A stretch of 64,000 nucleotides of DNA from Mya arenaria (lineage: Eukaryota; Mollusca; Bivalvia; Myida; Myidae), in assembly GCF_026914265.1 (NCBI RefSeq), contig NC_069125.1, forward strand, positions 6,902,117 to 6,966,116. Reading direction: 5' to 3'. The notes below the pieces were generated by a model, which saw only the letters and a list, made by a program, of their open reading frames with translations, was not told the origin of the DNA and searched no databases. Shown here piece after piece: positions 3,721-25,324 of this stretch. Positions within the stretch are counted from its first letter, which is position 1. Every line of letters starts with the position of its first letter. The position numbers and the translations under genes were made by a program.

Positions 3721-4015
3721 CATACACATGTATAATACTTTTTTAACTGATCGAATTCAAACACTAAGCAGTATTATGTTTTTGTGAAATTTGAAAACTA
3801 AATATGTTACATTCGTCTTCCATAGTTGAGTTATCTTCTTTTATCTGGTCCTTCAAGATAAGTCCAATGTCTTAATGATTCTTGTACATATAATAGCTCT
3901 TTGGCCGTAGCTAGGACCATTGCCAATGGAGTACTGAGCATTACCTTTAATGTATAGTTTCAAAGAAAGTGAGACTGTTGCTTGTAAACGTTGATGTGAT
4001 TCCGATGAATCTTTT

Positions 4016-4065
<50 letters not shown>

Positions 4066-4084
4066 GATTCTACGTTGGTATTTC
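4016..4084 (-). pseudogene. Eroded tail mini-exon copy H, overrun by a GA microsatellite
   Basis: On the minus strand an acceptor (TTAATTAG) at 4085-4086 is followed by the usual mini-exon start, reading GNTNVESA. The rest of the exon and its donor are replaced by a (CT)n tract, which is (GA)n on the plus strand at about 4016-4062. The upstream intron still matches the other copies. It lies beyond the presumed last exon and the poly(A) signal, so it is a relic. Confidence 0.7.
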
Positions 4085-4829
4085 CTAATTAAAATAGAGC
4101 GAAACAATTTAATGGTGAATGCTATCTGGTTCTCCAGGATCCTGACCTAACAACCCTGTGAGTGCCTTATATTTTGACAGGATCATTGAATTATTAATGT
4201 GCATGCCGGAATAAAATAGGGCTAAATTGAAATACACAGGTATTAGTAGCATCCCATTTTAAAAACACACAATTAACAGACAATGAACATAAACTGTACA
4301 CACTGATTGTTAAACAACAAGCTGTTTTTGCAATTGCTCAAAAAACTTTTGACAATTTGATTGCGTATGAATACATACACCAATACTTCTGTATTCACGG
4401 ACGAACTTTTAACATGTTTTATGCCGGAAAATACTCGGAAATTCAAAACGCTACATCAACGTTTCAAAGTGTACCCATTTCATTCTGAGATCCACAGCAC
4501 TGCCTAAAACTCCACAAACAGAACAGTGGATATATTCTATATAAAAAAACTAGGTTTGTTTATCAAGGATTGTTAGGTTCCGCCTTGGAACGGCCAGTAA
4601 AATGTAAATTTACTGGGAGTTTACCTTGAATATCTGGGCATTTTCCAATAACTAATAAGCCATCTGACTTTATTTGACACTTGTGTTGTATAAACACTAA
4701 TAACTCTTTTATATCATCTTAGTCCGCTTCGGAGCAAATAGGCCGGTAGATGTTCATCGCGATGTTGGTTGTCATAGCAGTTTGTGTTCACAACCATTTT
4801 TGTCCCAAAAATCGTGTCACCATCACAGT

Positions 4830-4835
4830 TTTATT
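4830..4835 (-). terminator. Candidate poly(A) signal of gene A
   Basis: AATAAA on the minus strand, about 210 nt downstream of the presumed stop at 5043. The position is plausible for a 3' UTR end, but the hexamer is also expected by chance in AT-rich DNA. Confidence 0.4.
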
Positions 4836-5042
4836 GATTAAAGACAGTAGTGCATCGGCCTGGCTTCCTGAGGTTATATTATTCTCTAGGGCCACCATTC
4901 TTTGTATTCAAACTTGAAAACCTTGGGGTGATCCTCCCCTAGCCCAATCGAACGCCTCGAGATAGTACCAAAAACTCGACCAAATCATGTTAATGTAATA
5001 ATTTGTGACTTCTATCGATGTTTTATATCTTCTATGTTTGTA

Positions 5043-5209
5043 TCAAAACACATTCACATAAACTTCGTCATTAACCATCCCAATAATACTATCGTCAATC
5101 AAGTCGGAAGTCCCATCCATTTGATCCAAAATTCGCATCAAAATCGCAATAAAAAGCTTCAATTTACCTCGATTTTTGATTTTTAAAATCACTTCTGCAT
5201 TAAAATTAT
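5043..5209 (-). CDS. Gene A probable last exon, tail ending DEVYVNVF
   Basis: After an acceptor GATGCGCAG the frame that fits the phase-1 mini-exons reads DNFNAEVIL, later MDGTSDLIDDS and NDEVYVNVF, then TGA. The start resembles the mini-exon consensus GNTNAE, so this may be a diverged unit. YVNV fits the YxNx form bound by Grb2-type SH2 domains (family knowledge). A GTAAAT donor inside the exon (after NRG) is an alternative end. An acidic, tyrosine-bearing C-terminus suits a receptor tail, but the assignment is an inference. Confidence 0.4.
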
Positions 5210-5579
5210 CTGCGCATCTATCAGCGTATGACATCCGGTCGTACCGGAAAACATATCAACCGGTAACAATAGAGCCAAAACGAAAGTAAATAAAGTGAAA
5301 GTCCAGTATGTCAAAAACTACACCTTTTGGTGTATCCCGCATGTAGAGGGTGACTATACCAAAATGTGTATCCCGAAAGAAATGGGTCCATTTTCTCAAT
5401 GATCTATTGTACATATAATAGCTCTTTATCCGGAACTAAGGACGTTGCCAATGTTGTATTGGGCATTCCTTTTAATGTTACAATCAAACTCACGGTGTTG
5501 CTTTTAATCGTTGTGGTTCCGACGGAATCCCTCTTCAAGAGAGGAAATAATGTAGTAAAGTGAGCTAACTCTTAATTAC

Positions 5580-5645
5580 CTGACTGAACAGTCCCGTCAT
5601 CCGTTCCATCTATTGTCGTGTAGGCTGATTCTGCGTTGGTATTTC
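5580..5645 (-). CDS. Gene A tail mini-exon G (66 nt, phase 1-1)
   Basis: Acceptor TTATTAG and donor GTAATT flank 66 nt reading (G)NTNAESAYTTIDGTDD then GTVQS(G). It is a multiple of three and symmetric, so it can be skipped or included without a frame change. It is the last clean copy before the presumed terminal exon. It has a tyrosine (AYTTI) not found in the other copies. Confidence 0.65.
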
Positions 5646-6838
5646 CTAATAAGAATATAGCGAACCGATTTAATGATGAATGCTATCTTGTTCTCCAGGG
5701 TCATATATATTGTGTAGAGGATAAAAAATATCAGTGGGATAGCGATTTTATTTTATTGGGTGAGCACCAAAAGTCATTTTTTCACGGGTGGCAAATCCCG
5801 ACTGAAAATACGAACTTTTGGTTATCACGAGAAAAACACTGAAACAACATTTTTTTTCCTTTTCTGTTATGCTTAAAACGAAGGTTTTAGCGTTTTTTCC
5901 CTATCTAATCACCACGACCTTTGACCTACGCACCCCGTTGAGTCCCGAATATTTTGACAGCATAACATAATTATTAAAGTGCATGCCGGAATAAAAAGGT
6001 ATTCGTAGCATCCCATTTTTATGAACACACAATTTACAGACAATTAAATAAAACTGTACATATTGATCTTCAAAGAACAAACTGTTTTTGCACAAAACTT
6101 CAACTCAAAAATTTGATTGCTTTTGAATACATAAAACAATATTGCATTCAGTGAGTCACGGATAAACTTTCAACATGTGTTTATACCAAAAAACTAAGAA
6201 AATTAAATACATTACATCAACTTGTCAAAGTTTTCTAATCATAAACGTGGAAGTAAACAAGCCTTTACTTATCACTGTTACTGTTGTGGGAAATCATGCT
6301 GATTCAATGTATTTTGCGGAGTGATCGAGTGATTTCGAGAGAATGGCGAATTCCTGTTGACCGGAAAATTTGTTTGCTTTGCTGATTATTAATTTTGGAG
6401 TAATTGTTGATGTTGTTAATAATATCCAGCTGCTCGAATTATTGTGAAATAATTGGTTTGTATGTAGCAAAATCATGCACATAAATATTTGCGTGTTTCG
6501 AGCAGTTTAACCTGGATTGATAATGATATTGACCCCTGAACGAGCTCTACTTAAAGGTGTGACAATTATTGCAGAGAAGCAGCCAATAAGTTTGTGATTC
6601 ATTTCAATTTTAATGATGTTTCTTGAAAACAAAATTTCGTCAACTTTTTATTTTTTGTAGCAGACGCCTTAAACATGTATATTATAATATACATGTTCTA
6701 GTCAAAGGACGAAACTGAAGAAATATTTTATATTGTAAAACATTTCATTGTACAATTTTAATTTTAAGTTTAGTTGTAATTCCGAAGAATCTGTTCAAGA
6801 GGGTATTAGCGTATTAAAAGAAAAAAACACCTCATTAC

Positions 6839-6919
6839 CGGACAGAACACTGGAAGAGGGTTGACTTGCATCATCCGTTTCTGCTAGACCCGTGTCGACT
6901 GACTCTTCGTGGGTATTTC
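6839..6919 (-). CDS. Gene A tail mini-exon F (81 nt, phase 1-1)
   Basis: Acceptor TTTTTAG and donor GTAATG flank 81 nt reading (G)NTHEESVDTGLAETDD then ASQPSSSVLS(G). It has the longer form of the unit, with a serine-rich insert before the last residues. Confidence 0.65.
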
Positions 6920-7068
6920 CTAAAAACAATAAAGCTAAATCAATTTAACACTAAATGTTATATTATCTCCAATATAATTGTTTTTTAAGTTAATTATTCT
7001 TGGAATTTGAATAATGTATTAAAAGCCGGTTCTAGAGGGACCTTATCATGGAGAGAACTCTTCATTAC

Positions 7069-7134
7069 CAGACTGAGTACTTGTTACAACCGTTTCTTCT
7101 ACAGCCGTGTCGACCGATTCTGCGTTGGTATTGC
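7069..7134 (-). CDS. Gene A tail mini-exon E (66 nt, phase 1-1)
   Basis: Acceptor CTTTTAG and donor GTAATG flank 66 nt reading (G)NTNAESVDTAVEETVV then TSTQS(G). The short form of the unit, open and symmetric. Confidence 0.65.
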
Positions 7135-7300
7135 CTAAAAGGTTAATAGCTACAAAAATTTAATACTGAATGGAATCTTGTCTCCATTATCTGAATTATG
7201 TATAATTATGTATTATTGATTCTTAGAAATAGACCAACGCTTTTAGAAACCGTTGCTTGAGGACGTTTACAATGTTGTACATTGACGACGAATTCATAAC

Positions 7301-7337
7301 ATGACTGAGAAGCAGACTAGCTCTTTGTTGGTATTAT
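7301..7337 (-). pseudogene. Eroded tail mini-exon copy D
   Basis: Begins like the other units (acceptor TTTTTAG, reading NTNKELV), but the middle is deleted and only 37 nt remain before a mutated donor region (TCAGTCAT then GTTATG). The length is not a multiple of three, so inclusion would break the frame. Confidence 0.65.
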
Positions 7338-7549
7338 CTAAAAAGACTGAAGCTAAAACGATTTAACTTTGAATGCTATATGGTCAACCAGGCTCATTGT
7401 TTATATTTTAATGATAAATTCTTGGAAATAAAATAACGTTTTAAAGCCCGGTGCTAGGGGGCGTTGACAATGCTGTTCTAACGTTCAAAGTACAGATTTA
7501 ATCAAATTGAGGCTGTGGATTTTAAACGAAGCTACAATAATGAACGCTT

Positions 7550-7670
7550 AGGGAACTATTTTTAACATTTGTATTTTCATTTTTTCCCTAAACGCTACAA
7601 GTCGACTTATCCAGACCAATGTAAAATATATTCTTCAAGTGTTACTCCACAATAATTAACACTGTATTGC
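7550..7670. repeat. Dispersed repeat copy, also at 63.9 kb
   Basis: Sequence around 'ccctaaacgctacaagtcgact' and 'ttactccacaata' recurs in the same orientation at about 63890-64000. It looks like a dispersed element in the tail introns. Confidence 0.6.
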
Positions 7671-8029
7671 ATTAAATAAAACCACAAAAGTTACACAAAC
7701 ACTGTTTTTAGCAAATACCTTTCTCTTAATACACTTTCATGAAATACTAATTCAGTTCGACTTCTGTCAACAAGGCATTGCCATTTTGCGTCTGTCTAGC
7801 AGATGCCCGTTATTTTTCCGCTCAATATACTTAGCGCTGGAATCTGTCATTCCGACAAGTGGGATATGGACGCAAAGAGCCGCAAAAACAAAATCGTCAA
7901 AGACTCTGAAGCGGCTGTTTATATGGACCACTTTGAAACGTTGATGTAGTTGTGATTCCGAAGGATCTCTTCAAGATAGTCTTAGTATATTAAACTAAGC
8001 AAACACTTCATTACCTGAAGCCTCTTTAC

Positions 8030-8110
8030 CGGACTGAACTCTTGTAGTGTGTCGACTTTTATCAAACGTTTCATCTAAAGCCAAGTCGAATGATTCTGCG
8101 ATGGTAATTC
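8030..8110 (-). CDS. Gene A tail mini-exon C (81 nt, tandem donors)
   Basis: Acceptor TTTATTAG. The first donor (GTAAAG) ends the exon at 8030 and gives 81 nt: (G)ITIAESFDLALDETFD, then KSRHTTRVQS(G). A second donor (GTAATG) 15 nt on, ending at 8015, would add KEASG in frame. Confidence 0.65.
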
Positions 8111-8390
8111 CTAATAAACATATAGCTAAAACAATTTAACACTGATATCTGGTCTCAATGATCATTGGTTATATATTTGTGAATCTTCGAAATAGACCAA
8201 TGCTTTTAAAAGTGTGTGCTAGGTGGCGTTGACAATGTTTTACTTAGCATTAATTTCGCAATTTATAGTTTCATTTAACTTGAGACTGTTGCTTTTATAC
8301 AATAATGTAGTTGGTTTCTTGAAGGATCTCATAAAGAGAGTATTAATGTATTAAACGGTGCGATCTCTTCATTACCTGACGCTTCATTAC

Positions 8391-8471
8391 CGGACTGAAC
8401 ACTTGTAGAATGTTGACTTCTATCATCCGTTTCTTCTAAATTCGTGTTGACTGACTCTGTGTGTGTATGTT
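8391..8471 (-). CDS. Gene A tail mini-exon B (81 nt, tandem donors)
   Basis: Acceptor CTCATTAG. The first donor (GTAATG) ends the exon at 8391 and gives 81 nt: HTHTESVNTNLEETDD, then RSQHSTSVQS(G). A second donor 15 nt on (exon end 8376, again GTAATG) would add NEASG in frame. The same arrangement is in copy C, so it predates the split of these two copies. Confidence 0.65.
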
Positions 8472-9213
8472 CTAATGAGAATAAAGCAAAATAATGTTAA
8501 CAATGAATTCTATCTCAGAATGGTGTAGTGTATCTGATTGCGATGGATACATAACCAACCAATACAATGAATGGAGTGAATGATGCATGACCTGGAAATT
8601 GACTTAATTTGCATATTGAATACCAACGCTGATCCTCCAGGATCACTGAATATGTCTTACGGATTCTTGAAAAATAGAATAACTCTTTGAAGAGTCGGTG
8701 TCAAAGGGTGTTGGCAATGTTGTACATGGCATTACGCTCAATCTAACTGAGACTGTTGCTGCTATACGTTGATTAGCTGTGAATCCGAGGATCTCTTCAA
8801 CATACTATTAAAGATGCACTCTTACTCCCAAATAAGATTTACCACAATTAATAATACTGTTTTAATATTCCATAAAGGGTGAATAAATCTCGAAAACAAT
8901 GGTTCTTGTGAAGGATACCAAGTTGAATTTGAAGTAAATGAGCATAAAACACGGTATTTCTACCTTATAAAACTATAGTAGACCACAGTAAATCTTTTGG
9001 CATTCACCAATCATTTTATATTTTTTCGCTTTCTGCTATTAAATACACAGTTAAAATCTTGTTATCAGTAATTAATATTTTCCATAAATGCATTATTTTG
9101 TAATTAGTTATAAAAGGTTAATCAATCAAAATTGATGTTTGTTATACATGTGTATGTATGAACTTTGAATTAGAGTGTCACTTTAACTAATTAATGGAGT
9201 AAACGCCATTTAC

Positions 9214-9279
9214 CTGACTGGGCACTTCTGTCATCTGTTTCTGCTAAAGCCACGTCGACTGACTCTGCGTTGGCATTTC
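9214..9279 (-). CDS. Gene A tail mini-exon A (66 nt, phase 1-1)
   Basis: Acceptor CTTATTAG and donor GTAAAT flank 66 nt reading (G)NANAESVDVALAETDD then RSAQS(G). It is the first unit after the constant tail exon, whose phase-1 end it continues exactly. Confidence 0.7.
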
Positions 9280-9728: not shown

Positions 9729-9874
9729 CGGTCTGTACAGGACTCAAAACAAGGCTTTCGACATTTTCATCAATTGTGTCATAAGGTGTTTCGTTCTCAT
9801 TAGTTGAACTTTTCGGGTTTCCGGTCCCTGGCCTTAGGAGTTGTAACAATACCGCCATACCGCTAGGTCTATAT
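9729..9874 (-). CDS. Gene A exon 35: constant cytoplasmic tail segment with YDTI
   Basis: Acceptor ATTTTAG and donor GTTTGT. Joined to the transmembrane exon it reads RYRPSGMAVLLQLLRP, then NPKSSTNENETPYDTIDE, then SLVLSPVQT(G). RYR is a stop-transfer-like basic patch. PYDTI is a Yxx(I/L) tyrosine motif of the kind seen in ITIM-like or endocytic signals (family knowledge). Nothing like the catenin-binding block of classic cadherins is visible. It starts in phase 2 and ends in phase 1, exactly what is needed between the transmembrane exon and the mini-exons. Its ending VQTG resembles the VQSG that ends several mini-exons. Confidence 0.65.
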
Positions 9875-10071: not shown

Positions 10072-10178
10072 CTAATGTAAACAAAGATAACCATGGCGAT
10101 GGAAGCAAATATGCAGACAATGGAACCGATCACAGCTCCTACTACCGTCCCTATATCGGCAGTTTCTATTTCACCAGC
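10072..10178 (-). CDS. Gene A exon 34: transmembrane helix
   Basis: Reads AGEIETADIGTVVGAV, then IGSIVCIFASIAMVIFVYI, an uninterrupted hydrophobic run of about 25 residues followed by basic residues in the next exon. It starts in phase 0 after a TATCATCAAG acceptor and continues exon 33 directly. The single helix gives a type I topology with the cadherin repeats outside. Confidence 0.8.
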
Positions 10179-10576
10179 CTTGATGATAGTAAAGTAATTC
10201 CATTGTGTTAATTGACATATGTGTAGAATAGCAATTGTAAACTAGCATCTTGCTTGCACACAATAGTACCGACACCTGACGTACAGCCGGGCCCGTTTGT
10301 GACGCCCCGACCCACACAAAACGGACAGCGGGTACGTTCAACTTGGCCTTGTTGCAAACTAAAACTGATGTTTTTGTTGTTCATTTTTATTAACACATAT
10401 TATTGAAAAATAAACATCATTATTATCATATTATAATGCAAAAAATGTATATATAACACTAAACACTTTTGATGTATATTCTTTAACCGCCACTTTACTA
10501 TTATGTATATATTTTATTATATATACTATACCCCAGTAATTCTTAGCATATCGAAAATGACAACTTCAATAAATAC

Positions 10577-10663
10577 CGATGTTCTACACGTTGCACTGTT
10601 CTCGATGTCAAGGTATGGATTGCATTGACAAAGATTTCCATACCATTCACCATAGCAAGCACA
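10577..10663 (-). CDS. Gene A exon 33: EGF-like end
   Basis: An 87-nt open exon with acceptor ATTTCAG and donor GTATTT. Reads CACYGEWYGNLCQCNP then SATCRTS. The CxC..G..G..C pattern closes the EGF-like module begun in exon 32. Phase 0-0. Confidence 0.7.
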
Positions 10664-10768
10664 CTGAAATTAAGATAAGACAACATCAAACAAAGAATTG
10701 AAGAATACTATGATATAGCAAATATCAAACTGCTACTTAATAACTGAATTTCAAAGTTTGCTTTTCAC

Positions 10769-10898
10769 CTGAATTATGTCTTCCTCCTTTTCGGCATGCA
10801 CGTTGGTCGAACATATTCCTCCGAAGCAAAGGCTCCCAGATGAACACTAATCTATTTCTTCACATCCTTGTGCCGTGTTCACATAATGTTCCGGACAG
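10769..10898 (-). CDS. Gene A exon 32: EGF-like module with an in-frame stop
   Basis: Acceptor TCAATAG and donor GTGAAA. Reads CPEHYVNTAQGCEEID, then TAG, then CSSGSLCFGGICSTN. The stop sits where EGF modules usually have E or another residue before C. The frame and splice sites around it are intact, so this is a point change or a sequence error. Confidence 0.65.
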
Positions 10899-11094
10899 CT
10901 ATTGAAAGTACACATTAAACCGAGGGAAAAGGAAGCATTTGTGAAAAATAGCGATTTGTTTGGTATACGGGAGCTAGAATTTGAAGAAAAATACAAGATC
11001 TAGATAATGTGCACTGGCGTTGAACAACATGAGACAAGAGGGTTGTCCGAACGGAAAGAGGTGTGTCTACTACAACCTGTTCTTGCATCACCTA

Positions 11095-11390
11095 ATGCAC
11101 AAGTCAATTGTAACCTCCCCCCCTGAAGTCGGGGGGTAAACCGGATATAGCTGGGGAATGGAACGTGTTTCTACCTTTCAGGTGGCCCTAAAGTGCCGAG
11201 TGAATGCGGTGGATTTTTTCGCGCCGAAAATAGCGGGGAATGGGCCTTACCTAGAATGAACCCGGGGTTCGGGGGCATTTGGTGGGTATTTTACCAGCAG
11301 AGTGTTCCCGCAGGGCGGGGTGTTTACCTGGGATTGGCTGGACCGAAAGTCAAATTAGTTCGGAACCGAAAACATGTACATGTATTACTT
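11095..11390. other. GC-rich island in a gene A intron, unidentified
   Basis: About 300 bp distinctly GC-rich against AT-rich surroundings, with runs such as 'cctccccccctgaagtcgggg' in part and 'gggcggggtgtttacc'. It contains a small palindrome (ccccc...gggg). It is open for 66 codons on the plus strand but matches nothing I recognise. A transposon fragment is likely. Confidence 0.4.
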
Positions 11391-11493
11391 TGACTGGACA
11401 AATTCTTTCTTTTTTTATCATCTAGGGTACAGATGCGCGTTATAAAAGCGTTATCGCCGTTTAACAATCAACTGGTTTCAGTAGCTTACTCAC

Positions 11494-11682
11494 GAGCATG
11501 TGAAGTCTTCCCACTTAGGCACACATATTTTGGTGGTGTACACTGGCCAGGGGGACAGTCATCTCGACTGCACTGTTCCTGTACATTTGCTGAAAACACT
11601 AAAACGGCAGCGGGGCTCAATATTGCTTCCTCAAAGGTAAGCGGAAACCAACTGTTGTCAATCCGAACGTCTTTGATACACG
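11494..11682 (-). CDS. Gene A exon 31: end of laminin-G and cysteine-rich link, frameshifted
   Basis: Reads TCIKDVRIDNSWFPLT, the usual C-terminal end of a laminin-G domain, then CSRDDCPPGQCTPPKYVC. After that the frame must shift by one base to give PKWEDFTCS, which continues in phase into exon 32 (CPEHY). Length is 189 nt where 190 is expected, so one base is missing. The donor is GTGAGT. Confidence 0.65.
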
Positions 11683-11794
11683 CTGAAAAACACAAGGTGT
11701 TTGTATTATGAATAAAACACTTATTCTACATCATGCGTTTTATATCATAACACGCTCCCAATCAAGTAAGCTTTTTTTCAAATATAATACATAC

Positions 11795-12086
11795 TGTTCG
11801 ACAAGTCGTCACCGTAATACACAGGCGATCCAGAGGCATAGCTCACTGACGCTCCAGCGACAATTCTATCTTGGCGTATGCTGAAATCCCTAAGTCCGCT
11901 GTCCCGACCTGACGTCTCTGTGTAATAACGCCATTCTCCGCCATCCAATTTTAATATAAACGTGCTGCCGTGACGTTCAAGTGTCACTAAGTGATACTGG
12001 CCGTTGTCAACCCTGATTTCCGAAAGGATTAGCGCCACCTCGCCATCACCCATATTGTACACGAGTTGCAAATGTCCACCTGTAAG
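11795..12086 (-). CDS. Gene A exon 30: laminin-G domain 2, second part
   Basis: Acceptor GCGTTAG and donor GTATGT. Reads LTGGHLQLVYNMGDGE, later RVDNGQYHLVTLERHG and FILKLDGGEW. These are the W/Y-H-L-V and L-Y-hydrophobic strands of a laminin-G sandwich. Open throughout, phase 0 to 1. Confidence 0.8.
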
Positions 12087-12345
12087 CTAACGCCAGCAAC
12101 GGAATCGCATTTGTCAATTTTGATATTTAGGAATAATTTCAACAAAAATAATTATTATACAGTTATCACCGAAACGCCCATGGTAATAAGCCACAGTATG
12201 TACTGGTCATTAGTCAGGATTTCGAAATTGTGAAATATATCTAAAAGTTTTTAAAAAAGAATATTTTCAGCTGAGATAGCTTGCCGAATGATTATCTCGT
12301 CTAAGACGGGGATATGTGTACTAGAATGCATAGAAGTTATCTCAC

Positions 12346-12527
12346 CATGAATGTTATGAAACTGTTTTCATTTGATTGACCGGAAAGAGACAAAATAAGA
12401 CCATCTGAATCTCTGGTGCGGACATGAAAACTGACCGTCGTCTAGCGAACGTTTAATGAATTCACAAACGCATCCTTTAAGTGCCATGCTATAAAACTTT
12501 CTGCCATTAATGAGCGTTCAGGTACCT
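12346..12527 (-). CDS. Gene A exon 29: laminin-G domain 2, first part, in-frame stop
   Basis: Reads VPERSLMAESFIAWHL then KDAFVNSLNVR, TAG, TTVSFHVRTRDSDGLIL and SGQSNENSFITFM. The laminin-G pattern 'V.F..RT.D..GLIL' is clear and the stop interrupts it (CAG to TAG is the simplest origin). Acceptor TTACCAG, donor GTGAGA. Confidence 0.7.
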
Positions 12528-12883
12528 CTGGTAAAATAAAGATTCTTCATTTTATAGATCATGCCAATTGTAATTATATCAACTTATTTCACACACATTT
12601 AAATTAATTAAATTTGTTACAAGTCAAATTAAGAATATTGCATATTTTACAAATAAGATACCATTTTTGTTTTTCTTTGTGAATAAAGACGAAACAAATG
12701 ACAAGCACATAACATTGTGTTAAATAATATTTACTCTATCAAAACATACATTTAAAGTATGACAATTTCAATTTTATAAAATATCAAAATATATTTCTGA
12801 AAGATGTCAATTTTACAGTTTTTAAATATGTCAATTTCATTTTCTACAATCTAAAAAATGACAACAAACAACCACTTTCTCAC

Positions 12884-13076
12884 TTGTGTCACACTTATCC
12901 GAATTTGATTTTCGCCAGCTGTGGTCGCAAACACATGCTGCCTTTAGTTTTCCGGCCACGACATCTGTAACCTGACATTGGCCCCTTCCACAGCTTTCTG
13001 AGCCGCAGGCAGCGTTCTCCAGAGGGCAACCGTCCACAGACCCTGGGAACAGACCTCCCGTGCTTAGGTCATAAAG
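12884..13076 (-). CDS. Gene A exon 28: EGF-like, cysteine-rich
   Basis: Reads LYDLSTGGLFPGSVDGC, then CGSESCGRGQCQVTDV and AACVCDHSW. The LYDL start followed by spaced cysteines matches the linker between the two laminin-G domains in CadN-type cadherins. Acceptor ATTTTCAG, donor GTGAGA, phase 0 to 1. Confidence 0.8.
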
Positions 13077-13646
13077 CTGAAAATATAAGCACACACTACT
13101 GCAAAACATAATGCAGCATTAAATAATTGCCTGTTTAATTCCGCTACTACAAAAAATCAATATCAGTTTCGGCATAAAAACCATCAGATTACGCTTAAAC
13201 TTTATCATGGTAACCAACACAAGTGAATTGTTGCGTTTGGGCGGTACATGATCTTGTCTTCGATGCAAATTTCATTTTGAACGTGTGCTGTTTAACTGAT
13301 TGACAACCACGTATTGGTAAGTAGATGTAACTATATTTTCGTAAGCAGATGATTAGAATAGAAGCAATACATATTAAAATATTAAGATATTTTGGAATAT
13401 GTTTTCCTTTGCTTACAATCACTGATAAGTTTTCATATCAGAACGGTAATTAGTAGACAGTGCTCTTACCGCACAAGTTAGTTGCTTCACTAATACAACG
13501 GTTCTTATTGCACGCTGTTGTTGACACTATGGTCAGTACAAAACAGTTACTACACATTCGGGCTCGTGTATAATTTCAATAACTCAAGTTGTGAGTAAAA
13601 TAACTATTACCGGTTCCATGTAAACCATGATAAAATAAAACCTAAC

Positions 13647-13871
13647 CTCAGTGTTGTGGATAAGGTTCATCATACAGCCCGAAAACCTTTCTCTAACGAC
13701 GTTTCCTGGGTACGAAGGCTCACTTATCCGTCCACCGAGCTGAAGCATGGTGGCTACATTCAGATAAATGGCCTCCCCTCGGGTATATCCGGACGCTTCA
13801 CACCCAGACCTGTCCTCAACTCCGCCGAAAAACACGCTTTCTATACATTGGTCAATTACCATTCGGACATG
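13647..13871 (-). CDS. Gene A exon 27: laminin-G domain 1, C-terminal part
   Basis: Reads HVRMVIDQCIESVFFG, CEASGYTRGEAIYLNV and LGGRI...ERFSGCMMNLIHN. YLNV, then LGG, then F.GC..N is the standard end of a laminin-G domain. Open, phase 0-0, 225 nt. Confidence 0.8.
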
Positions 13872-14278
13872 CTGAATTTAAGACATTGATTACTTTTATT
13901 TACAGCCATTCAAACATTAACATGCTTTAGAACGAAATACATTATTGAACTTGTTTTCTTTAAATAGACTGTCTGTCAATTGCAATAAACTAATGGTAAT
14001 GGTTTACGTTGAAAACTATTTAGGCAAGGTACAAATCATAACCATATGGTCAAATCGAAGGCAAAATCGGTAAATTGGGTTGTTGTGCTGGTGCCATTTC
14101 AATACAGCTTAAATATAATATTCATTAAATGTCTCGCAACACATTACTCCTATTGTATAAACGGCGATTTTTAATTTGTGGGGTTATGTTGCTAAATTGT
14201 AATAATTGTACTTTTAAATGCATCGTAAATAAGAAAATATGACGGACATGTGTGCATCTTCTTTAATAATTAGATTAC

Positions 14279-15850
14279 AAAGCGGTGCTTGTACGGGTAC
14301 GAGACGGTTCTTGTACAGATATAAAACGGTGCTTGTACGGGTACCAGACGGTTCTTGTACGAGTACGAGACGTCGCTTGTACAGATATAAAACCGTGCTT
14401 GTACGGGTACGAGACGGTTCTTGTACAGATATAAAACGGTGCTTGTACGTGTACGAGACGGTTCTTGTACAAATATAAAACGGTGCTTGTACGGGTACGA
14501 AACGGTGCTTGTACGGTTACGAGACGGTGCTTGTACGGGTAAGAGACGGTGCTTGTACGGTTGCGAGACGGTGCTTGCACGGGTACGAGACGGTACTTGT
14601 ACGGGTACGAGACGGTGCTTGTACGGGTACGAGACGGTGCTTGTACTGGTACGAGACGGTGCTTGTACGGGTACGAGACGGTGCTTGTACGGGTACGAGA
14701 CGGTGCTTGTACGGGTACGAGACGGTGATTGTACCGATATAAAACGGTGCTTGTACGGGTACGAGACGGTGCTTGTACTGGTACGAGACGGTGCTTTTAC
14801 GGGTACGAAACGGTGCTTGTACGGGTACGAGACGGTGCTTGTACGGGTACGAGACGGTGATTGTACAGATATAAAACGGTGCTTGTACGGGTACGAGACG
14901 GTGCTTGTACGTGTACGAGACGGTGCTTTTACGGGTACGAGACGGTGCTTGTACGGGTACGAGACGGTGCTTGTACGGGTACGAGACGGTGCATGTACTG
15001 GTACGAGACGGTGCTTGTACAGATATAAAACGGTGCTTGTACTGGTACGAGACGGTGCTTGTACTGGTACGAGACGGTGCTTGTACTGGTACGAGACGGT
15101 GCTTGTACTGGTACGAGACGGTGCTTGTACTGGTACGAGACGGTGCTTGTACGGGTACGAGACGGTGATTGTACAGATATAAAACGGTGCTTGTACGGGT
15201 ACGAGACGGTGCTTGTACTGGTACGAGACGGTGCTTTTACGGGTACGAAACGGTGCTTGTACGGGTACGAGACGGTGCTTGTACGGGTACGAGACGGTGA
15301 TTGTACAGATATAAAACGGTGCTTGTACGGGTACGAGACGGTGCTTGTACTGGTACGAGACGGTGCTTTTACGGGTACGAGACGGTGCTTGTACGGGTAC
15401 GAGACGGTGCTTGTACGGGTACGAGACGGTGCTTGTACTGGTACGAGACGGTGCTTGTACAGATATAAAACGGTGCTTGTACTGGTACGAGACGGTGCTT
15501 GTACTGGTACGAGACGGTGCTTGTACTGGTACGAGACGGTGCTTGTACTGGTACGAGACGGTGCTTGTACTGGTACGAGACGGTGCTTGTACGGGTACGA
15601 GACGGTGCTTGTACTGGTACGAGACGGTGCTTGTACAGATATAAAACGGTGCTTGTACGGGTACGAGACGGTGCTTGTACGGGTACGAGACGGTGCTTGT
15701 ACAGATATAAAACGGTGCTTGTACGGGTACGAGACGGTGCTTGATGTACAGATATAAAACGGTGCTTGTACGGGTACGAGACGGTGCTTGTACGGGTACG
15801 AGACGGTGCTTGTACAGATATAAAACGGTGCTTGTTTGGATACGAGACGG
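14279..15850. repeat. 22-bp minisatellite, about 70 copies, with 440-bp higher-order period
   Basis: Unit 'gcttgtacgggtacgagacg' plus 'gt' repeated head to tail within a gene A intron, with a second unit type containing 'cagatataaaacggt'. The order of unit variants repeats at an offset of 440 bp (14740-15000 against 15180-15440), so 20-unit blocks have been duplicated. 22 is not a multiple of three and contains no stop in any plus frame, so long spurious ORFs appear in all frames. Confidence 0.95.
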
Positions 15851-16091
15851 GGATTATTCGGTGTAATCTAAGTCCTTCAGAAATGAGTCGGCTCATGCAA
15901 GGTGATGCCAATGCCGTCCACATACTAGTACCGCGAAATAAACATTTTATACGAGATACTTCGGATTCAAGATGGAAAAAAATGTCGACGAACTTTAAAG
16001 CCTAATGCATTTTTTTCTTTTTTCAATTTTAGGAAAAAAAACTTCCCGTTTAAGTACAAGAGATTTTCTTAACTTCTCTAATTATACACAC

Positions 16092-16440
16092 TTTTCTACT
16101 TGTGAAAATGTCAATGCTGTGCCACATGCTATCATTTAACTTCCGCCGACCGCTTCCAGTTAATTGGAGAGTAACCTCCCCTGTGCCATGGTTTATACGA
16201 AGCTTCGGGTAACCGTCCAAAAGCTCCAACAGAATAAAAGCTATGGAATCAAGGGGTTTCAGTTCATCTATTGGACCATTGTACAATATCAGCTGGGTTG
16301 CTTTAGAAGTAAGGATCTCAATGCTGGTTCGTGAGTTATAACATTGTTTGAGTGGAAGATACAGCGCGTATCCAGTTCCGTCAAAACTCTGCCTTAGCTC
16401 TTGACATCGTGGTCCTCTATTCCCTTATGGACACGTGCAA
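16092..16440 (-). CDS. Gene A exon 26: EGF end and laminin-G domain 1, in-frame stop
   Basis: Reads CTCP, TAA, GNRGPRCQELRQSFDGTGYA, then SIEILTSKATQLILYNGP and LNDSMWHSIDIF. The EGF end and the start of a laminin-G domain (SF.G.GYA, LI.YNGP, W H.IDI) are unmistakable. The stop stands where EGF modules have a variable residue. Acceptor TTATTATAG, donor GTGTGT, phase 2 to 0. Confidence 0.75.
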
Positions 16441-16834
16441 CTATAATAATATGAGATACCATTCATTTGTGTGTGCAAAAACAGGCTGAAATCGATCAAA
16501 TATACATGCACGGTAGCTCTAGTTATAACCTAAAATCATATTTTAAGTCAGAACCCGAACGAATAGGCGAGTTCTGGGCCGAATTGAGGAGCATTTGGTA
16601 TGAAATGAATGAATTAAACCTGAACTATGGACGGAATGATAATTCCGATTGGAACATTGACTGGTATCACATAGATTCCAGACGTAAAACAAAGAGATTT
16701 CCGGGCGTAAAATAAATCCAGGCGAATTTTAATATGAAAACATATTCATGAAGCTGATTTTTATTAAGTCTTCTCATTCCATTTATCAAAGACGGAATTT
16801 TCAACTTAGAGAAAAGTTCGAACACTTTAAAACT

Positions 16835-17345
16835 TTAGTGGCATATGCTACAATTGTACAATGGTTCATGTTTGACATTTTGGTCTAAATTTTCCCATTT
16901 TAATTGTGAAGACCCGTGTATAAAAGGTGGCAACTCAGGAACAATATAGAGGTGCGGAGCTATCGCTATTTTATATTCGAACATAAATTTATTTATGACA
17001 ATGTAGATAAACTTATTTAAGTTGACGGTATTTTTTAAGCGTTATGGTTTCATCTAATGGTTACATTATCCATTCATCCAATTATTTAATAGCATTATCA
17101 CTGCCAATTGTATCGCTCATCAACCATTATGGTAAATTTCAGCGTGGGCCACGCCATTTTATAAACTTTACAAAGTGTTCTGCAATTATTTTCTATTTTA
17201 TGGTTGCTTGAATGGCATATGTTACTATTGAATATGCTTGACATTTTGGGATGACGACCCAGTTTAATAGTGAAAACTCATAGTGCATAAGAGGTGGCAA
17301 TTCATGAACTATTTTGAGCTGCGGAGCTATCGCGGGTTTTTATCA
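16835..17345. repeat. Imperfect tandem duplication, about 370-bp period
   Basis: Two diverged copies (about 16838-16980 and 17210-17345) share 'tggcatatg', 'gacattttgg', 'aaggtggcaa' or 'gaggtggcaa' and 'gcggagctatcgc'. Intronic and non-coding. Confidence 0.65.
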
Positions 17346-17356
17346 GGCCACGAGAT

Positions 17357-20019
17357 ACAGTACTGTTAAGACCAAACTTTACACTCTTGTTCACTAGGAG
17401 TGCACTAGTAGTGAACAATTTGTGCACTATGGATAAACTAATGTAGTCTGTAGTTTATTAGATAAGCCAGTATTGATTTTCCTGGTGCACTCAGATTGGC
17501 CTTACTATGTTGATTTAATATTACTGATAAGATCATTTCCTCTAGAATATCATTGTTTAACTTGTGATAAAACATTTTAGTATACTGCATTTATTGATGA
17601 CTTTATGATGATCATCATTTAATGGGCCAGTAAGACAAGGGGTTTCTACCCATCATTTACTGGTCATATTTGTCAATTTTTTAATTCTAATGTTGGTGAA
17701 ATAAGAATAAAACATTTCTTAAATAAATCCAATAAATTTCTTTGAAAGCCAATATTTGAAAATAGGGGTGTTATCAATATAATTTTGCTACTATTGTAAC
17801 ATCCAAACAATTGCTTTGGTAAATCAGACATTCAATTAAAGTCAATTAGTGATTACAAAATAATAATTCTGAATCCTAAGTATATAAGTGAACAGCACTG
17901 TTATATATTCAAACAGTAAATGCAAAACCAATGTTTATGATAAAAAAAGGTAATTCTAATTTAAAAGAAGAAAAAAATGCATGCAATGTTGAAAAAAAAC
18001 AACCTCGCCTTAATTAGATTTAAAAATAGAAGCTCAGGCTATTTCTTCAGAAACAGATTTTTCATATATGCATTACATTATAACTTCATCAAAAAGATTA
18101 TAAATACTAATCTAGATGATATTGCAATTGTCTGTAACTTTCCTGTATAGATGTTACGTAACTATATTCACGATTAATTTCATTACTTTTCATAAACAAA
18201 CATCTTAAAAGCCTAGTTTGAGCATTTGATACTGAATGTATCTATTTATCTTTATATATAAAAAGAGCAAAAACGGGAATTATCCTACCAAATGGCCCAC
18301 TAACCAGGCATTAAATTTTAATTTCAGAAAATGATAAAATGCTTATTCATACTTTTGTAATGAGATTACCCATTGTAACAATGTTAGACCCAATAGGTCG
18401 AGGCAATAAACAATACACAGGAAGTATCAGGAACCCTGCTGTGATAACTTAAAAATGGCAAAAAAAGGTAATTATCCTATGCATCCAACCATTAACCAGG
18501 CATTACAATAAATATGAGTTATAATAAACTTGCTATTTGATGTTAAAATACATGATATGCATGGTTAATATTAAATATCTCTACTCTTAACAATTTGATT
18601 AACAAATGATGAAAAGTGTCCTAAAGAAATAGTATTTTTATTTTATAATGCAGTTGCAAAATATAATTAATATAAACTATTTTCCATCTTTTATAAAAAC
18701 ATTTTTGTTAACATCTCTTCTCTTAAACCAAATTCGTAAAAAATATATTGAGTTGCCTAGTTTTAAGAAGATTGTTATGTTAATTCTCTGCTGTGTATCC
18801 CTTGTTTATTGCACTAGTGTCACTGCAGGGGCAATTTCCTGTGTATTTGTTTATTGGCTCGGGGCCATTTGGAGGTGACACCATTTAGAGTAGAAAATAG
18901 CATTATCTTATTAATACACAACCAATTCTTGCATAAACAATATATGCATGGCCAATGTATTAATTTGACTGATGAGAAGTAAATAACAAACAAATAAAGT
19001 AACATTACATTTATGTTGTATGCTATAAATCATATAATGGGATATTATTAATAATATCTAACATTACTCTTATTCTGACTCTAAAAAGTTATCAAAATGA
19101 AACGGTAATATAAACACTGACAGATCTGAGATTAAAGAAGGCTTAGGGTAGCCTTCAATGGATAGTATTTCATTTAATAATGAAGCAGCAGAACCACCTC
19201 TTAAATATATGTTTATCTATTATGTGTTTCAAATTAGAAATGCAATTAATAAATCTAGAAACAATTCAGAAAATATACTATAATAATTAATGGTGTACTT
19301 ATTTGATAATAATTGCTGTTAGGCTATCACCTTAAATTATAATACATTTGTTAATCAAAAATAAACATAAAATTGAAAGTTTTACAATAGATGGAAGAAA
19401 ATCTTGCAACAATTTCACAGTTTGAGCTTGGAACAATAAGGTGTGAACCTTGATGATTAACTATTTTAAATAACGAACAACTTGTAACTATCACCTTGTG
19501 AAACTTATTGTTATAGTTAAAATAAAGGCTTATGAATTCATTTCATCGTTATGTTCAATAAGTGTTTGAAGATGAAACCCTTTAACCCAGAACAAAAGTT
19601 ATATCATTATACCTATCAATTAATATCAAAATAATGCAATGCATATTAATAAAGAAAACAAAAAAAAAACATTAAATATCTTTGTTTGACAATTTCTTTT
19701 TTTATAAAACAACATCAGTTTTTTATTTTAATAAATCTAAATCAGTTACATAAAAGGTCCAAATGGATTATAAGTATTCTCTATCAATTAATTAACATTA
19801 AAACATCTGTTTAAACTACACCCATCATTCTAAGTTTCACTGTAAAGATAGCTTTTATTATAGACTGAAGAAGCTTTATCTGGTCAGCCCCTTGTCTGCA
19901 TTTAGTCTTTCACTGGCCTTCCCCTTGTCTTACCCTAGTGCACTACGAAGTGCACTGATCGTAAACTGATAGTGAACAAGAAGTTCACTTACTGTCAAGT
20001 TTGGTCTTAACAGTACTGT
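17357..20019. mobile_element. Terminal-inverted-repeat DNA element, 2.65 kb, TTAA-type ends
   Basis: The ends are inverted copies: left 'acagtactgttaagacc' at 17357, right 'ggtcttaacagtactgt' ending at 20019, followed by related subterminal motifs ('gtgcactagtagtgaac' left, 'gtgcactacgaagtgcac' right). The TTAA inside each end would suit a piggyBac-type target duplication with GACCAAACTT termini. Alternatively the palindrome acagtactgt is the target duplication. The interior is AT-rich with no recognisable transposase, so it looks non-autonomous. It lies in the intron between gene A exons 25 and 26. Confidence 0.75.
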
Positions 20020-20130
20020 CCGGAAGCAAATAAAGATGGCTGCACCCACTACCGTAACAGTTCATCAATTTTAACTGTATATAAGAACATAATCTCGAAA
20101 CTTGCTTCCACAGAGCTGTTTCCACGCCAC

Positions 20131-20360
20131 GAACCATCATTGTAACAGTCAAATGATGATTTGTTTAATCCAAAATCACACGATGGCTAGGCGGTTATGG
20201 TTAGACCTACGTATGATGATCCAGCAGACTGTATCACGGTCGGTGCGTCGGAAACTACAAGTGATGTATAACAGTCTCCCTCACAACCGTCAAACTGGCA
20301 CATTTCAACAGGAACCATACTTATTTCACCATTTCCAAAATCCGTTAGAATACTCTCAAA
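20131..20360 (-). CDS. Gene A exon 25: cysteine-rich link, in-frame stop
   Basis: Reads FESILTDFGNGEISMVPVEM, CQFDGCEGDCYTSLVV, SSYVGLTITA, TAG, then PSCDFGLNKSSFDCYNDGS, continuing into exon 26 as CTCP to complete an EGF-like module. CadN-type proteins have the same VPV..C and C..SFVG features here. The donor is a weak GTGGCG, chosen because it restores phase 2. CAG to TAG is the simplest origin of the stop. Confidence 0.65.
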
Positions 20361-20869
20361 CTGCAACATATACAAAAGGTGTGTGGTTTGAGAAATAATT
20401 GACAACGTACAATAATTAAGAACCGGTCACATTATTGTGTGTGCATTCATGTTGTATAAACGTAGTAGAAACGCGAAAAAATCCTTAGAAGCGCGTTAGC
20501 CATCTAAAGATGCGAATTTATATATTTTTAACAGTAATTATTTTGAAGCCAATACATTTTTATTAAAGAATAGCCGATAATTGTAATGTTATATAATAAA
20601 TAGTAATAAGATATCAGTTAAAATTATTGATTTAGAACACCGGGGCCTACCGAAATCAAGCTGTATATGTTGTTAGACGAGTATAGTCACTGTTGTAGGT
20701 CTCGATGTAAGAAAAGCATTTTTTAACCTGAAGTTTCGTTGTTTTTTATCGGAAAGATGTTATTTTGCATATACATGAAGTGAAACCTTTGATTAAATAA
20801 GCCATAACTAATGTGCTTATATTTATAAATATGCGTTCATCGGAGGTATTTTAAGGATAATGTTTTTAT

Positions 20870-20955
20870 AAAACATTTGACCTTGATCTTGACCTTGAGC
20901 TTCGACATACAAGTTTACCTCAAATGTAACAGAGGTCATCTACTAGTACAGAGCT
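20870..20955. repeat. Low-copy 'gaccttga' repeat patch
   Basis: 'ttgaccttgatcttgacctt' and a nearby 'gaggtcatc' make a short pentameric patch of the kind common in molluscan dispersed repeats. Intronic. Confidence 0.35.
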
Positions 20956-21321
20956 ATTTATTACTGAAGTTTTATGGTCAAAGATAAAACTTTTATCGAG
21001 TTATGATATGGAAAACGTTTTCAATTGGCTGTTGACCATGCCGTTACCTTAGACCTTAACTCAAAAACAAAAGGGGTACTCTCCTTTCGGTGAAGGTATA
21101 ATAAACGATTGTTCAAAAAATGCACACGAATATCAATGATCACATGGACTTTGCCATGTTATTCAACCCGGTCCGTCAAAATAACGCACCATATTTCGTA
21201 GGCATTTATAAAGAAAGTCCTTCCAATAAAAATTCAGACGTTCCTCTTGTGTTTAACACTCATAACGCAATACCTAGTTCAAGCAAAAATATACAAAACA
21301 TGGACAAACATATTGACGTAC

Positions 21322-21578
21322 TTCGTTTTTATGTGCTGTTACAATGCCGTTCATAATACTACTCTGATATTGTGGACGTCCAAGATTTGCTAATCTAATT
21401 TCCGTGTAAGAATTGTTTCCGACAACGCTAAACATCTTAATTTTTGGAACAACTGTGGCATTCCTGTGTATTTCCTCTGTTAGCAATTTTTGAAACTGTA
21501 TGTTCATGGTATCCATGCTTTTTGTCATTTCCTGAGAGGGTATTCGTGGTAAATGTAGAAAGTCAGCCGGACTTATAC
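21322..21578 (-). CDS. Gene A exon 24: CadN-type proximal domain
   Basis: Reads GISPADFLHLP, FQKLLTEEIHRNATVVPK, KIKMFSVVGNNSYTEIR. In CadN proteins the segment after the last cadherin repeat has the pattern 'I.R.SG....EF' and 'VDIFSV', and this fits. Phase 1 to 0, open. Confidence 0.8.
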
Positions 21579-21732
21579 CTGAAATAATAGAGTTATTAAA
21601 TTAATTGTCAAAAGGGCGCTTTCTTTCTGGCATCAAACTATGTTACGCACATATCTTTGACTTTAATTACATTATATTCGATTTGATAAATACGTGTACA
21701 ATATGCGTATCATTTGAAATAAATGAACTCAC

Positions 21733-21892
21733 CAGTGATTCGGACAGATCCTGCGTTAAACACGTCATTTTCTGTTACATAGACTAATGTTATATGGACG
21801 TTTGTTACGGTTGCAGCGTTTGTCGACTGGTCTTTAACCAATACCTTGACAGAGAAAGCCATTTCCGGAGTATTTGACCTCAAACATATACA
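21733..21892 (-). CDS. Gene A exon 23: start of CadN-type proximal domain
   Basis: Reads CICLRSNTPEMAFSVKV, ATVTNVHITLVYVTENDV, FNAGSVRITG. The 'V.VTE....SG.IR..G' pattern is the hallmark of the non-chordate proximal domain of type III cadherins. It begins after a GAAACAG acceptor, phase 0 to 1. Confidence 0.75.
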
Positions 21893-22117
21893 CTGTTTCA
21901 AACAACTGTTTCAACATTCAGCAATTTAACTTAAACCACAATCATTTGCCTGTACATAACATGGTGCATTGTATTAAAACATGTTGGTCTTTATCTACAT
22001 GTATACTAGTGTTGTAATACAGTGAAATGTAGAACATTCTTAATCCGAAACTCTAAATAAAATGGTAATTAATTTTGCAGCAAAAATACAAATAAAATGA
22101 GCATAAAATGAGTTTAC

Positions 22118-22326
22118 CTTTATAACTGTAACAATAATAAATTGTTCTCCGTCTAGGTTTGTATTGTCATTTGCGTCAGCAATGTCTATTTTTATATATC
22201 TGACGCCGCATTGCTGGTCTTGTCTGCTCAACCCGGCAACGTCACATGTCCTTACAGGCAGTATAACGACCTTTTCAAACTCTCGATCGAATGTTCCAGT
22301 CACGAGAATGAACCCTACATTAGTTT
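22118..22326 (-). CDS. Gene A exon 22: last cadherin repeat
   Basis: Reads ETNVGFILVTGTFDREFEK, CDVAGLSRQDQQCGVR, KIDIADANDNTNLDGEQF. FDRE and the DANDN calcium motif mark the end of a cadherin repeat, followed by a CadN-like linker. Acceptor CTTTGTAG, donor GTAAAC. Confidence 0.8.
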
Positions 22327-23004
22327 CTACAAAGTTAAGTGAGCATAAATCACAAGAAGCTACAAGGATATGCCCGTCAGCCGAAAATAAAACGGAATCC
22401 GTTAATGGGACATATAGTTCAAAGACAAACAGATCCATCTAAGGTCACACAACATAACAAACCAACAGGCCCATATACCAATATACATTCGTTACATTTT
22501 ATCACCGTCAAAGTTTGGGTTACCGCCTTAGGAAGATCGGTGAAGCAGGGTTGAAGTGGTTTTAGAGTAATTAATCTCACACTAGCCCCAACATTAATCA
22601 AATATAGCAATTATTACCGTGTGTTTTTTATAAACATGATAAAATAAAACTAGGTGATACTAAGAATGCATAGTGGTTTGGGCGATTTCATATTGTTTTA
22701 TTCGAGCTTACCTTTAGCTTCAAAAGTACCCTAAAAAAATTGGGGGGGGGGGACATTATCCATGCAGTGTTGAATAGTTCCCCCCCACAAGATCTCAAAA
22801 ATGTTTATCTTTTATCTAATTTCATGTAGTTTATAGTCAAAGTAATTAAATTTTATCAATTCAATATTAATTCAAAACCGAAAAGCCATAAATGGCATAC
22901 AATTTGAACAGTCACCAAACAATTATCTATTTAAGAAACAAATATTTCGCAAGTCACAGGTCATTTTCCAAGATTACGAGTGTGTTTACAAACAATCGAA
23001 ACAT

Positions 23005-23154
23005 GTTCAATTAATTTATGTTGATATTAAAGAACATAATGTTGGAAAGTCATAACTGCACCGGCAAAGGTTCAATTCGTTTCTGTTGATATTAAAGAAC
23101 ATAATGTTGGAAAGTCATAACTGCACCGGCAAAGGTTCAATTCGTTTCTGTTGT
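23005..23154. repeat. 65-bp tandem duplication
   Basis: 'gttcaatt...tgttgatattaaag...gcaccggcaaag' occurs twice in full at 23005 and 23070, with a third start at 23135. Intronic. Confidence 0.85.
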
Positions 23155-24094: not shown

Positions 24095-24397
24095 CTGACA
24101 GTGTGTCATATACAAGTTGGAAGAAATTGTTTTTCCCGTCATTTCTGCAGTTTGCTCCAATTCTACAGTCACATTGCGGGGAAGCACCTTTCATATTGCA
24201 GTCAAGTTCAACCATGAAAGGAGCTTCATTTCCTGGTCCATCTGCGTCAGTAGCAGAAAACACCATTAGCTGGTCGCCATTATACTTCTTGTTTTCCATC
24301 AGAACGGGTGAGAAGGTTTGGGCTAAATCCGGGTAGTTGTCATTGACGTCAATCAATGAGACTGTTAATGTTGTCGTTCCTGTATTCTGAGGGATCG
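24095..24397 (-). CDS. Gene A exon 21: cadherin repeats
   Basis: Reads TLTVSLIDVNDNYPDLAQ, FSATDADGPGNEAPFMVEL, DCNMKGASPQCDCRIGANC. It carries a DVNDN linker and a DADGPGN calcium-binding motif, with an unusual cysteine cluster. 303 nt, phase 1-1; three codons longer at its 3' end than the gene B equivalent. Confidence 0.85.
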
Positions 24398-25209: not shown

Positions 25210-25324
25210 CTGTCAAGTGAAAAACATTTTACTTATATAGACTGATTGACATGTACTTTGGTAATGGTATGTATACGTATCAACGTATGTGTACGTTTAT
25301 TTTAACGTAACGGAGGCAGTCTAC

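Follow-up and report, generated by a model that had tools for sequence, protein, structure and literature searches.

What does a row of short, similar exons do at the 3' end of a cadherin gene? The 64-kb stretch of clam DNA analysed here (the window) carries such an array, and it could be either a working device for adjusting a receptor tail or the remains of one. Our analysis favours the second answer: judged from the DNA sequence, the array is probably a relic of optional tail cassettes, situated in an unprocessed pseudogene of a neural-cadherin paralogue.

Results

The array comprises six units with an open frame, each 66 or 81 nt long, between 5580 and 9279 on the minus strand, at the places given by the initial annotation (Table 1). 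As that annotation had also claimed, every unit begins and ends in phase 1 (6/6), so that any subset can be joined without a change of frame. Acceptors read TAG and donors GTAA in all six, leaving the 24 splice dinucleotide bases intact. The phase-1 frame is open in 6/6 units, and stops are present in 11 of the 12 readings of the other two frames. In u2 and u3, use of the second GT would preserve the phase. Homologous, short, of one phase and divisible by three in length, the units have the structure of a tandem array of symmetric cassette exons.

Table 1. Features of the window.
Feature	Coordinates	Strand	Description
Gene B	43680..63676	+	paralogue, head-to-head with gene A
Gene A	10540..38860	-	decayed neural-cadherin paralogue: cadherin repeats, Ig_Shg-like, LamG, EGF
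Putative transmembrane exon	10072..10190	-	GEIETADIGTVVGAVIGSIVCIFASIAMVIFVYIR, donor AG/GTAACT
Constant tail exon	9729..9874	-	TTTTAG/..G/GTTTGT, RYRPSG..NENETPYDTIDENVESLVLSPVQTG
Mini-exon u1	9214..9279	-	66 nt, NANAESVDVALAETDDRSAQS(G)
Mini-exon u2	8391..8471	-	81 nt, HTHTESVNTNLEETDDRSQHSTSVQS(G); a second GT 15 nt further on could act as donor
Mini-exon u3	8030..8110	-	81 nt, ITIAESFDLALDETFDKSRHTTRVQS(G); a second GT 15 nt further on could act as donor
Truncated unit e7	7294..7337	-	acceptor retained; 13 residues NTNKELVCFSVML, then stop
Mini-exon u4	7069..7134	-	66 nt, NTNAESVDTAVEETVVTSTQS(G)
Mini-exon u5	6839..6919	-	81 nt, NTHEESVDTGLAETDDASQPSSSVLS(G)
Mini-exon u6	5580..5645	-	66 nt, NTNAESAYTTIDGTDDGTVQS(G)
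Truncated unit e4	3960..4084	-	acceptor retained; 40 residues in phase 1, then stop

An HMM built from the six units with their flanks (reporting threshold E <= 10) was run over both strands of the whole window and matched eight places, every one within the array; no further copy of the unit was found outside it. The six full units, which had themselves built the model, gave E values of 5.4e-45 to 4.4e-43. The other two matches, 4064-4141 (E 2.4e-15) and 7314-7396 (E 8.7e-14), correspond to the units previously described as eroded, which proved to be truncated copies. The confinement of all eight places to the array points to local tandem duplication well beyond chance and rules out a dispersed repeat. 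Each mini-exon is embedded in a longer duplicated unit that includes intron sequence, and in e4 a (GA)n microsatellite has taken the place of the exon body. Both truncated units retain an AG acceptor, and their phase-1 frame runs on until it meets a stop, so that they could act as terminal exons; a separate 3' terminal exon was not identified.

The array is placed 3' of a putative transmembrane exon and a constant tail exon, in agreement with the earlier view that the mini-exons follow the transmembrane-like exon of a cadherin gene. The transmembrane call was made by eye from a hydrophobic stretch, its 5' boundary is approximate, and its likeness to the Mya transmembrane segment is weak (13/34). 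The constant tail exon ends in a phase matching that of the mini-exons and would, if unspliced, reach a stop after LYSAA. The motif YDTI occurs once in this exon, and YTTI once in u6. We do not claim that the mini-exons were copied from the constant tail exon: shuffle fractions were 0.27-0.72 for u1, u2, u3 and u5, and suggestive for u4 and u6 (0.003 and 0.048). An apparent frameshift at 9768 was discounted, as the 13 tail residues aligned there match by chance.

Upstream of these exons, gene A is about 79% identical to the Mya arenaria neural-cadherin (P0001) over 1570 codons, and 33 of the 37 chosen P0001 stretches were colinear with it in a frameshift-aware alignment, as also in tblastn (rows below 50% identity left out). 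Colinear cadherin-repeat, LamG and EGF exons place it in the neural-cadherin family; among the window stretches compared with Pfam, Cadherin exceeded the cut-off in 2 of 3 and LamG in 2 of 3, and the single Ig_Shg stretch fell below it. The cytoplasmic domain that also marks the family (PF01049), carried by P0001 itself, was not found in the window with the C-terminal 330 residues of P0001-P0006 as query, P0002 being partial and without a tail. The sole tail match at E <= 1 was serine-rich and low in complexity (E 0.3-0.7, near 41.6 kb). The classical tail of gene A could lie beyond position 1 of the window. Compared with Pfam, the transmembrane segment, tail and units gave nothing above cut-off, only sub-threshold matches, and the new tail matched none of 2792 candidate proteins of about 970-3085 residues and none of 2809 of about 312-992 residues at E <= 10, the length limits being computed from a 0.55-1.75 rule.

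Gene A looks broken, with lesions scattered over its cadherin ectodomain. Across the 33 aligned P0001 stretches there are five frameshifts, near 33179, 32706, 27194 (near an exon end), 26770 and 11530. In-frame stops at 12444 and 10849 are firm, while one at 16427 is counted as doubtful because it may be an intron end (TTAG/GG). Half an exon has been lost after 30747, and a 58-bp sequence has expanded 7-fold across an exon end. With introns retained and the reading frame disrupted, gene A has the make-up of an unprocessed pseudogene, and the earlier proposal that this gene could yield tails of many lengths is not supported for the host in its present state. Assembly error might account for the single-base indels; it is a less ready explanation for the two firm stops, the missing half exon and a 7-nt exon deletion at 47062 in gene B. 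Gene B is colinear with the N-terminal two thirds of the Mya arenaria neural-cadherin, and its tail falls outside the window. With Mya as outgroup, gene A carries 167 private amino-acid changes versus 96 in gene B over the 1570 codons (alignments scoring below 60 left out), and dS between A and B is 0.36. The unit-to-unit dS of 0.37 is close to this value, so that array and gene duplication may be of similar age.

In six-way alignments, the mini-exons differ by 0.263, compared with 0.29, 0.313 and 0.408 for the 20, 40 and 70 nt upstream and 0.343 for the 70 nt downstream. Exons are thus less diverged than flanks on average, as had been supposed, but the difference disappears where flanks align well: 9 of the 30 flank comparisons align clearly (at least 0.10 better than shuffled sequence), and in these the difference is 0.20-0.31, much as in the exons (0.21-0.30). 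Exons align in 15/15 pairs with a gap of at most 15 nt, the sole length difference among the units, none of which has a frameshifting indel; flank alignments contain 2-10 indels, which are owed in part to poor alignment. Differences are flat across codon positions (0.255, 0.293 and 0.241). Synonymous and non-synonymous change, a comparison suggested in the initial annotation, gave a unit-to-unit dN/dS of 0.86 (interval 0.41-1.99); these sequences reveal no clear constraint, and the ratio neither shows nor excludes past constraint at the protein level.

At the frameshift rate of the N-terminal part of gene A (4 per 4752 nt), the 441 nt of mini-exons should carry 0.37 lesions (P0 = 0.69), so that intact frames would be no surprise even if the gene is dead. 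All six were stop-free in about 10% of neutral simulations with substitution from the consensus, and retention of all 24 splice dinucleotide bases would have P of about 0.02 under neutrality. Past selection, formerly read from open exons amid diverged introns, remains a weak claim: it is favoured by splice sites that have been retained and by units free of frameshifting indels, and weakened by the flat codon positions, the dN/dS and the well-aligned flanks.

Discussion

Because the host copy is broken by frameshifts and stops, the array looks like the remains of an adjustable tail and not like a working one. At the 3' end of a neural-cadherin paralogue, an exon-plus-intron unit would have been duplicated locally and in tandem. 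In the once functional gene, splicing may have included or skipped any unit with the frame unchanged, every inclusion lengthening the short tail by 22 or 27 residues, and the stop may have been supplied by an unspliced or truncated unit. Gene A would later have lost its function, leaving the array behind.

A tail that is still alive, with gene A or an allele of it functional and varying subsets of units tuning length and motif content, would fit the six intact, phase-compatible units, their splice sites and the lower average divergence of the exons. It would also fit the donors: G at +5 occurs in 0/6 mini-exon donors, as expected for weakly recognised, skippable exons, versus 29/46 cadherin-exon donors of A and B, although the 46 were hand-listed, best-score picks and the six share ancestry. 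Given the lesions upstream, the lack of a tail homologue in both sets of protein candidates and the missing codon-position signal, we regard such a tail as quite unlikely. It appears decidedly improbable that the array is still used, whether through an intact allele or in the paralogue that runs out of the window at its 3' end; in that case the paralogue would have exchanged, in one bivalve lineage, its catenin-binding tail for a short tail with optional phase-1 cassettes used in combination.

The units may never have been exons: a tandem DNA repeat could have received its one open frame and its splice-like edges from one ancestral sequence and retained them by chance. Near-equal change across codon positions, well-aligned flanks that differ as much as exons and the neutral probability of stop-free units agree with this, as does an intact count of 6/8, not 6/6, once the truncated copies are included. 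It accounts less well for exons that align in every pair when flanks do so clearly in less than a third, for the indels of the flanks (with the above caution on alignment), for the kept splice dinucleotides and for a phase that fits the end of the upstream tail exon, and we judge it unlikely. The transmembrane, tail and mini-exons might also be part of another gene that is still alive, or of a short transcript whose promoter lies within gene A; the cadherin lesions would then be irrelevant. A tail unlike the classical one, the weak transmembrane match and the open transmembrane and tail exons are in line with this idea. However, the adjoining upstream exon (10540-10675) is the last EGF exon of the cadherin, and no other ectodomain or start exon was recognised in the ORF list, making a separate gene or transcript highly improbable.

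Symmetric mini-exon arrays are a cheap route to adjustable protein length, and one in a cadherin tail without a catenin-binding domain would show the rewiring of an adhesion receptor. As a relic, the clam array would record both the birth of such an array, through duplication of an exon together with its intron, and its fading, as growing microsatellites or deletions remove copies; the survival of open frames would be owed to shortness as much as to selection.

The neural-cadherin of Mya arenaria (CadN type, P0001) shares colinear cadherin-repeat, Ig_Shg-like, LamG and EGF exons with gene A, but ends in a PF01049 tail, whereas gene A is disrupted and has a short, unrelated tail followed by the array. 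No precedent for a cassette array in a cadherin tail was found in the open-licence PMC papers searched. In Dscam, also a cell-adhesion gene, exons are duplicated in tandem clusters; those exons are mutually exclusive and encode ectodomain, whereas the clam units are short, symmetric and placed after the membrane segment.

Symmetric short-exon arrays already have precedents in the micro-exon genes of schistosomes, a forerunner of which, tandemly repeated exons encoding 81-base repeats, was reportedly described by Davis et al. in 1988. According to PMC10526429, these genes resemble the clam array in their rows of short exons, which measure up to 81 bp and in most cases a multiple of three; they also have long introns, and splice isoforms are described. 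They encode secreted proteins with known isoforms, mostly from 15-bp exons; the clam units follow a transmembrane exon in a broken host and are known from sequence alone. Micro-exon genes proper combine a signal peptide, a coding region made mainly of micro-exons and a secreted product; with the larger exons of a cadherin gene, and units placed after its transmembrane-like exon, the clam gene is not of the schistosome type. Within the same gene family as the clam array, PMC2655722 describes duplicated, mutually exclusive exons in arthropod N-cadherin, one pair including part of the transmembrane segment. Both systems have duplicated exons that are, or may have been, alternative; by contrast, the arthropod exons come in pairs of larger exons (54-70 residues) in the ectodomain and membrane segment, and the clam array is multi-unit, symmetric and located in the tail.

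Results

The array of mini-exons lies in a gene (gene A) whose family, judged by its ectodomain, is that of the neural cadherins. With the C-terminal part as query, six of 7995 scored candidate proteins reached E≤0.001, the best being a Mya arenaria neural-cadherin-like protein, P0001 (2966 aa), and the second a Dreissena polymorpha protein. Over 1570 codons shared across the N-terminal two thirds, identity to P0001 was 79% for gene A and 84% for its head-to-head paralogue, gene B, and the two genes were 79% identical to each other, with a dS of 0.36 (0.32-0.41) and a dN/dS of 0.34 (0.30-0.41). With P0001 as outgroup, gene A carries 167 private amino-acid changes and gene B 96. No classical cadherin tail turned up in the window, the only matches being serine-rich low-complexity ones near 41.6 kb (E 0.3-0.7). 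For the tail of gene A together with its units, searches of two size classes, with 2792 and 2809 candidates, gave no homologue at E≤10.

Features of the mini-exon array and of the two cadherin genes
Feature	Position	Strand	Description
Gene A	38.9 to 10.5 kb	-	Colinear with P0001
Mini-exon u1	9214-9279	-	Short open unit, 3' of transmembrane-like and tail exons
Mini-exon u2	8391-8471	-	Short open unit, 3' of transmembrane-like and tail exons
Mini-exon u3	8030-8110	-	Short open unit, 3' of transmembrane-like and tail exons
Truncated unit e7	7314-7396	-	HMM match
Mini-exon u4	7069-7134	-	Short open unit, 3' of transmembrane-like and tail exons
Mini-exon u5	6839-6919	-	Short open unit, 3' of transmembrane-like and tail exons
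Mini-exon u6	5580-5645	-	Short open unit, 3' of transmembrane-like and tail exons
Truncated unit e4	4064-4141	-	HMM match
Gene B	43680-63676	+	Colinear with P0001; divergently oriented to gene A, runs off the window; tail outside the window

The initial annotation had described six open and two eroded units, and coordinates, lengths, phase and an HMM search bear this out. The open units (consensus NTNAESVDTALEETDDRSQHSTSVQS) measure 66 or 81 nt, are directly preceded by TAG and followed by GTAA, and enter and leave in phase 1, so that any subset can indeed be joined without a frame change. This frame is open in all six, and a stop is present in 11 of the 12 readings of the other frames. An HMM of the six units with their flanks, run over both strands of the window, matched eight places, namely these units and the two truncated ones, which keep their AG acceptor and read in phase 1 to a stop after 40 (e4, across a (GA)n microsatellite) and 13 (e7) residues. 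The constant tail exon ends at 9729 in phase 1 (ACCG/GTTTGT), and its unspliced read-on reaches a stop after LYSAA; no terminal exon was identified. A second in-phase GT lies 15 nt beyond the u2 and u3 donors (8367-8395, 8015-8029) and would add five codons. Downstream of the array are tandem repeats of 232 bp (3293-3717) and about 60 bp (3046-3217), and two minus-strand ORF fragments at 518-1128 which, judged by eye on a motif, resemble pieces of a retrotransposon integrase.

The suggestion that open exons between diverged introns reflect past selection stood only in part. In six-way alignments, exons differed by 0.263, below the flanks (upstream 0.29, 0.313 and 0.408 over 20, 40 and 70 nt; downstream 0.343 over 70 nt), which speaks for the suggestion. 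However, flanks that can still be aligned substitute at about the exon rate, since the nine of 30 comparisons of 100-nt flanks that beat shuffled sequence by at least 0.10 differ by 0.20-0.31 and the exons, pairwise, by 0.21-0.30; the remaining 21 were within 0.09 of the shuffled level, or worse. Comparison of synonymous with non-synonymous change gave a summed dS of 0.37, a dN of 0.31 and a ratio of 0.86 (0.41-1.99, bootstrap over 26 codon columns), with 88, 101 and 83 pairwise differences out of 345 at the first, second and third codon positions. A single length difference of 15 nt separates the exons, and flank alignments carry 2-10 indels, partly from the poor alignment of many. All six units keep their splice dinucleotides, which at the observed divergence has a probability of about 0.02, and all are stop-free (about 0.10 under neutral substitution); both figures take the units as independent and are uncorrected for the initial annotation having selected open ones. 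We take this as modest support for the units having formerly been spliced as exons. Because the lesion density of the N-terminal part of gene A predicts only 0.37 lesions in 441 nt of mini-exons, their openness is no proof of a live gene.

Gene A itself looks broken. In a frameshift-tolerant alignment of 37 chosen P0001 stretches, 33 aligned with scores of at least 97, and residues 1945-2000, residues 2125-2200, the transmembrane segment and the tail gave only short or weak matches. The aligned stretches contain frameshifts near 33179, 32706, 27194 (near an exon end, less firm), 26770 and 11530, in-frame TAG codons at 12444 and 10849, each flanked by homology, and a TAA at 16427 that is possibly the last bases of an intron. 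P0001 residues 910-999, retained within one exon of gene B, have no counterpart in gene A, and a 58-bp unit, single-copy in gene B, is repeated 7.1 times across the 3' end of a gene A cadherin exon (28941-29351), bringing additional donor-like AG/GTGGAG sites. Gene B has a 7-nt exonic deletion at 47062 and, near 43835, a 1-nt gap relative to gene A that was not called as an event relative to P0001. The single-base shifts could be assembly errors, an explanation that fits the two nonsense codons, the 7-nt deletion and the missing half exon less readily. Elsewhere in gene A, a 115-bp tandem duplication includes the end of a cadherin exon (35203-35440), and two LamG exons flank a 22-bp minisatellite of about 71 copies (14283-15850), which creates long spurious ORFs on both strands.

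Discussion

The array is a true, unusual arrangement, and most likely a relic. In its former working, it would have extended the short tail (RYRPSG..NENETPYDTIDENVE..) of a membrane protein by optional blocks of 22 or 27 residues, with the stop supplied by intron retention or by use of a truncated unit. The constant exon holds one YDTI and u6 one YTTI, sequences that resemble tyrosine-based sorting or signalling motifs. All six mini-exon donors lack G at +5, compared with 17 of 46 cadherin-exon donors of genes A and B (best picks, listed by hand), as expected of weakly used exons, though the six share ancestry. Because unit divergence is close to that between genes A and B, the 3' end of gene B beyond the window may carry a sister array; transcripts, or an intact array there, would raise the interest of the arrangement.

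Arthropod N-cadherin has three mutually exclusive exon pairs, one including part of the transmembrane segment, with no mention of a tail array in the passages on these exons (PMC2655722). The schistosome micro-exon genes are described as having short exons of 3-81 bp, most of them divisible by three in length, and as giving rise to splice isoforms (PMC10526429); the same source cites early work on exons in tandem repetition that code for 81-base repeats. As arrays of short symmetric exons, these genes and the present array would work alike.
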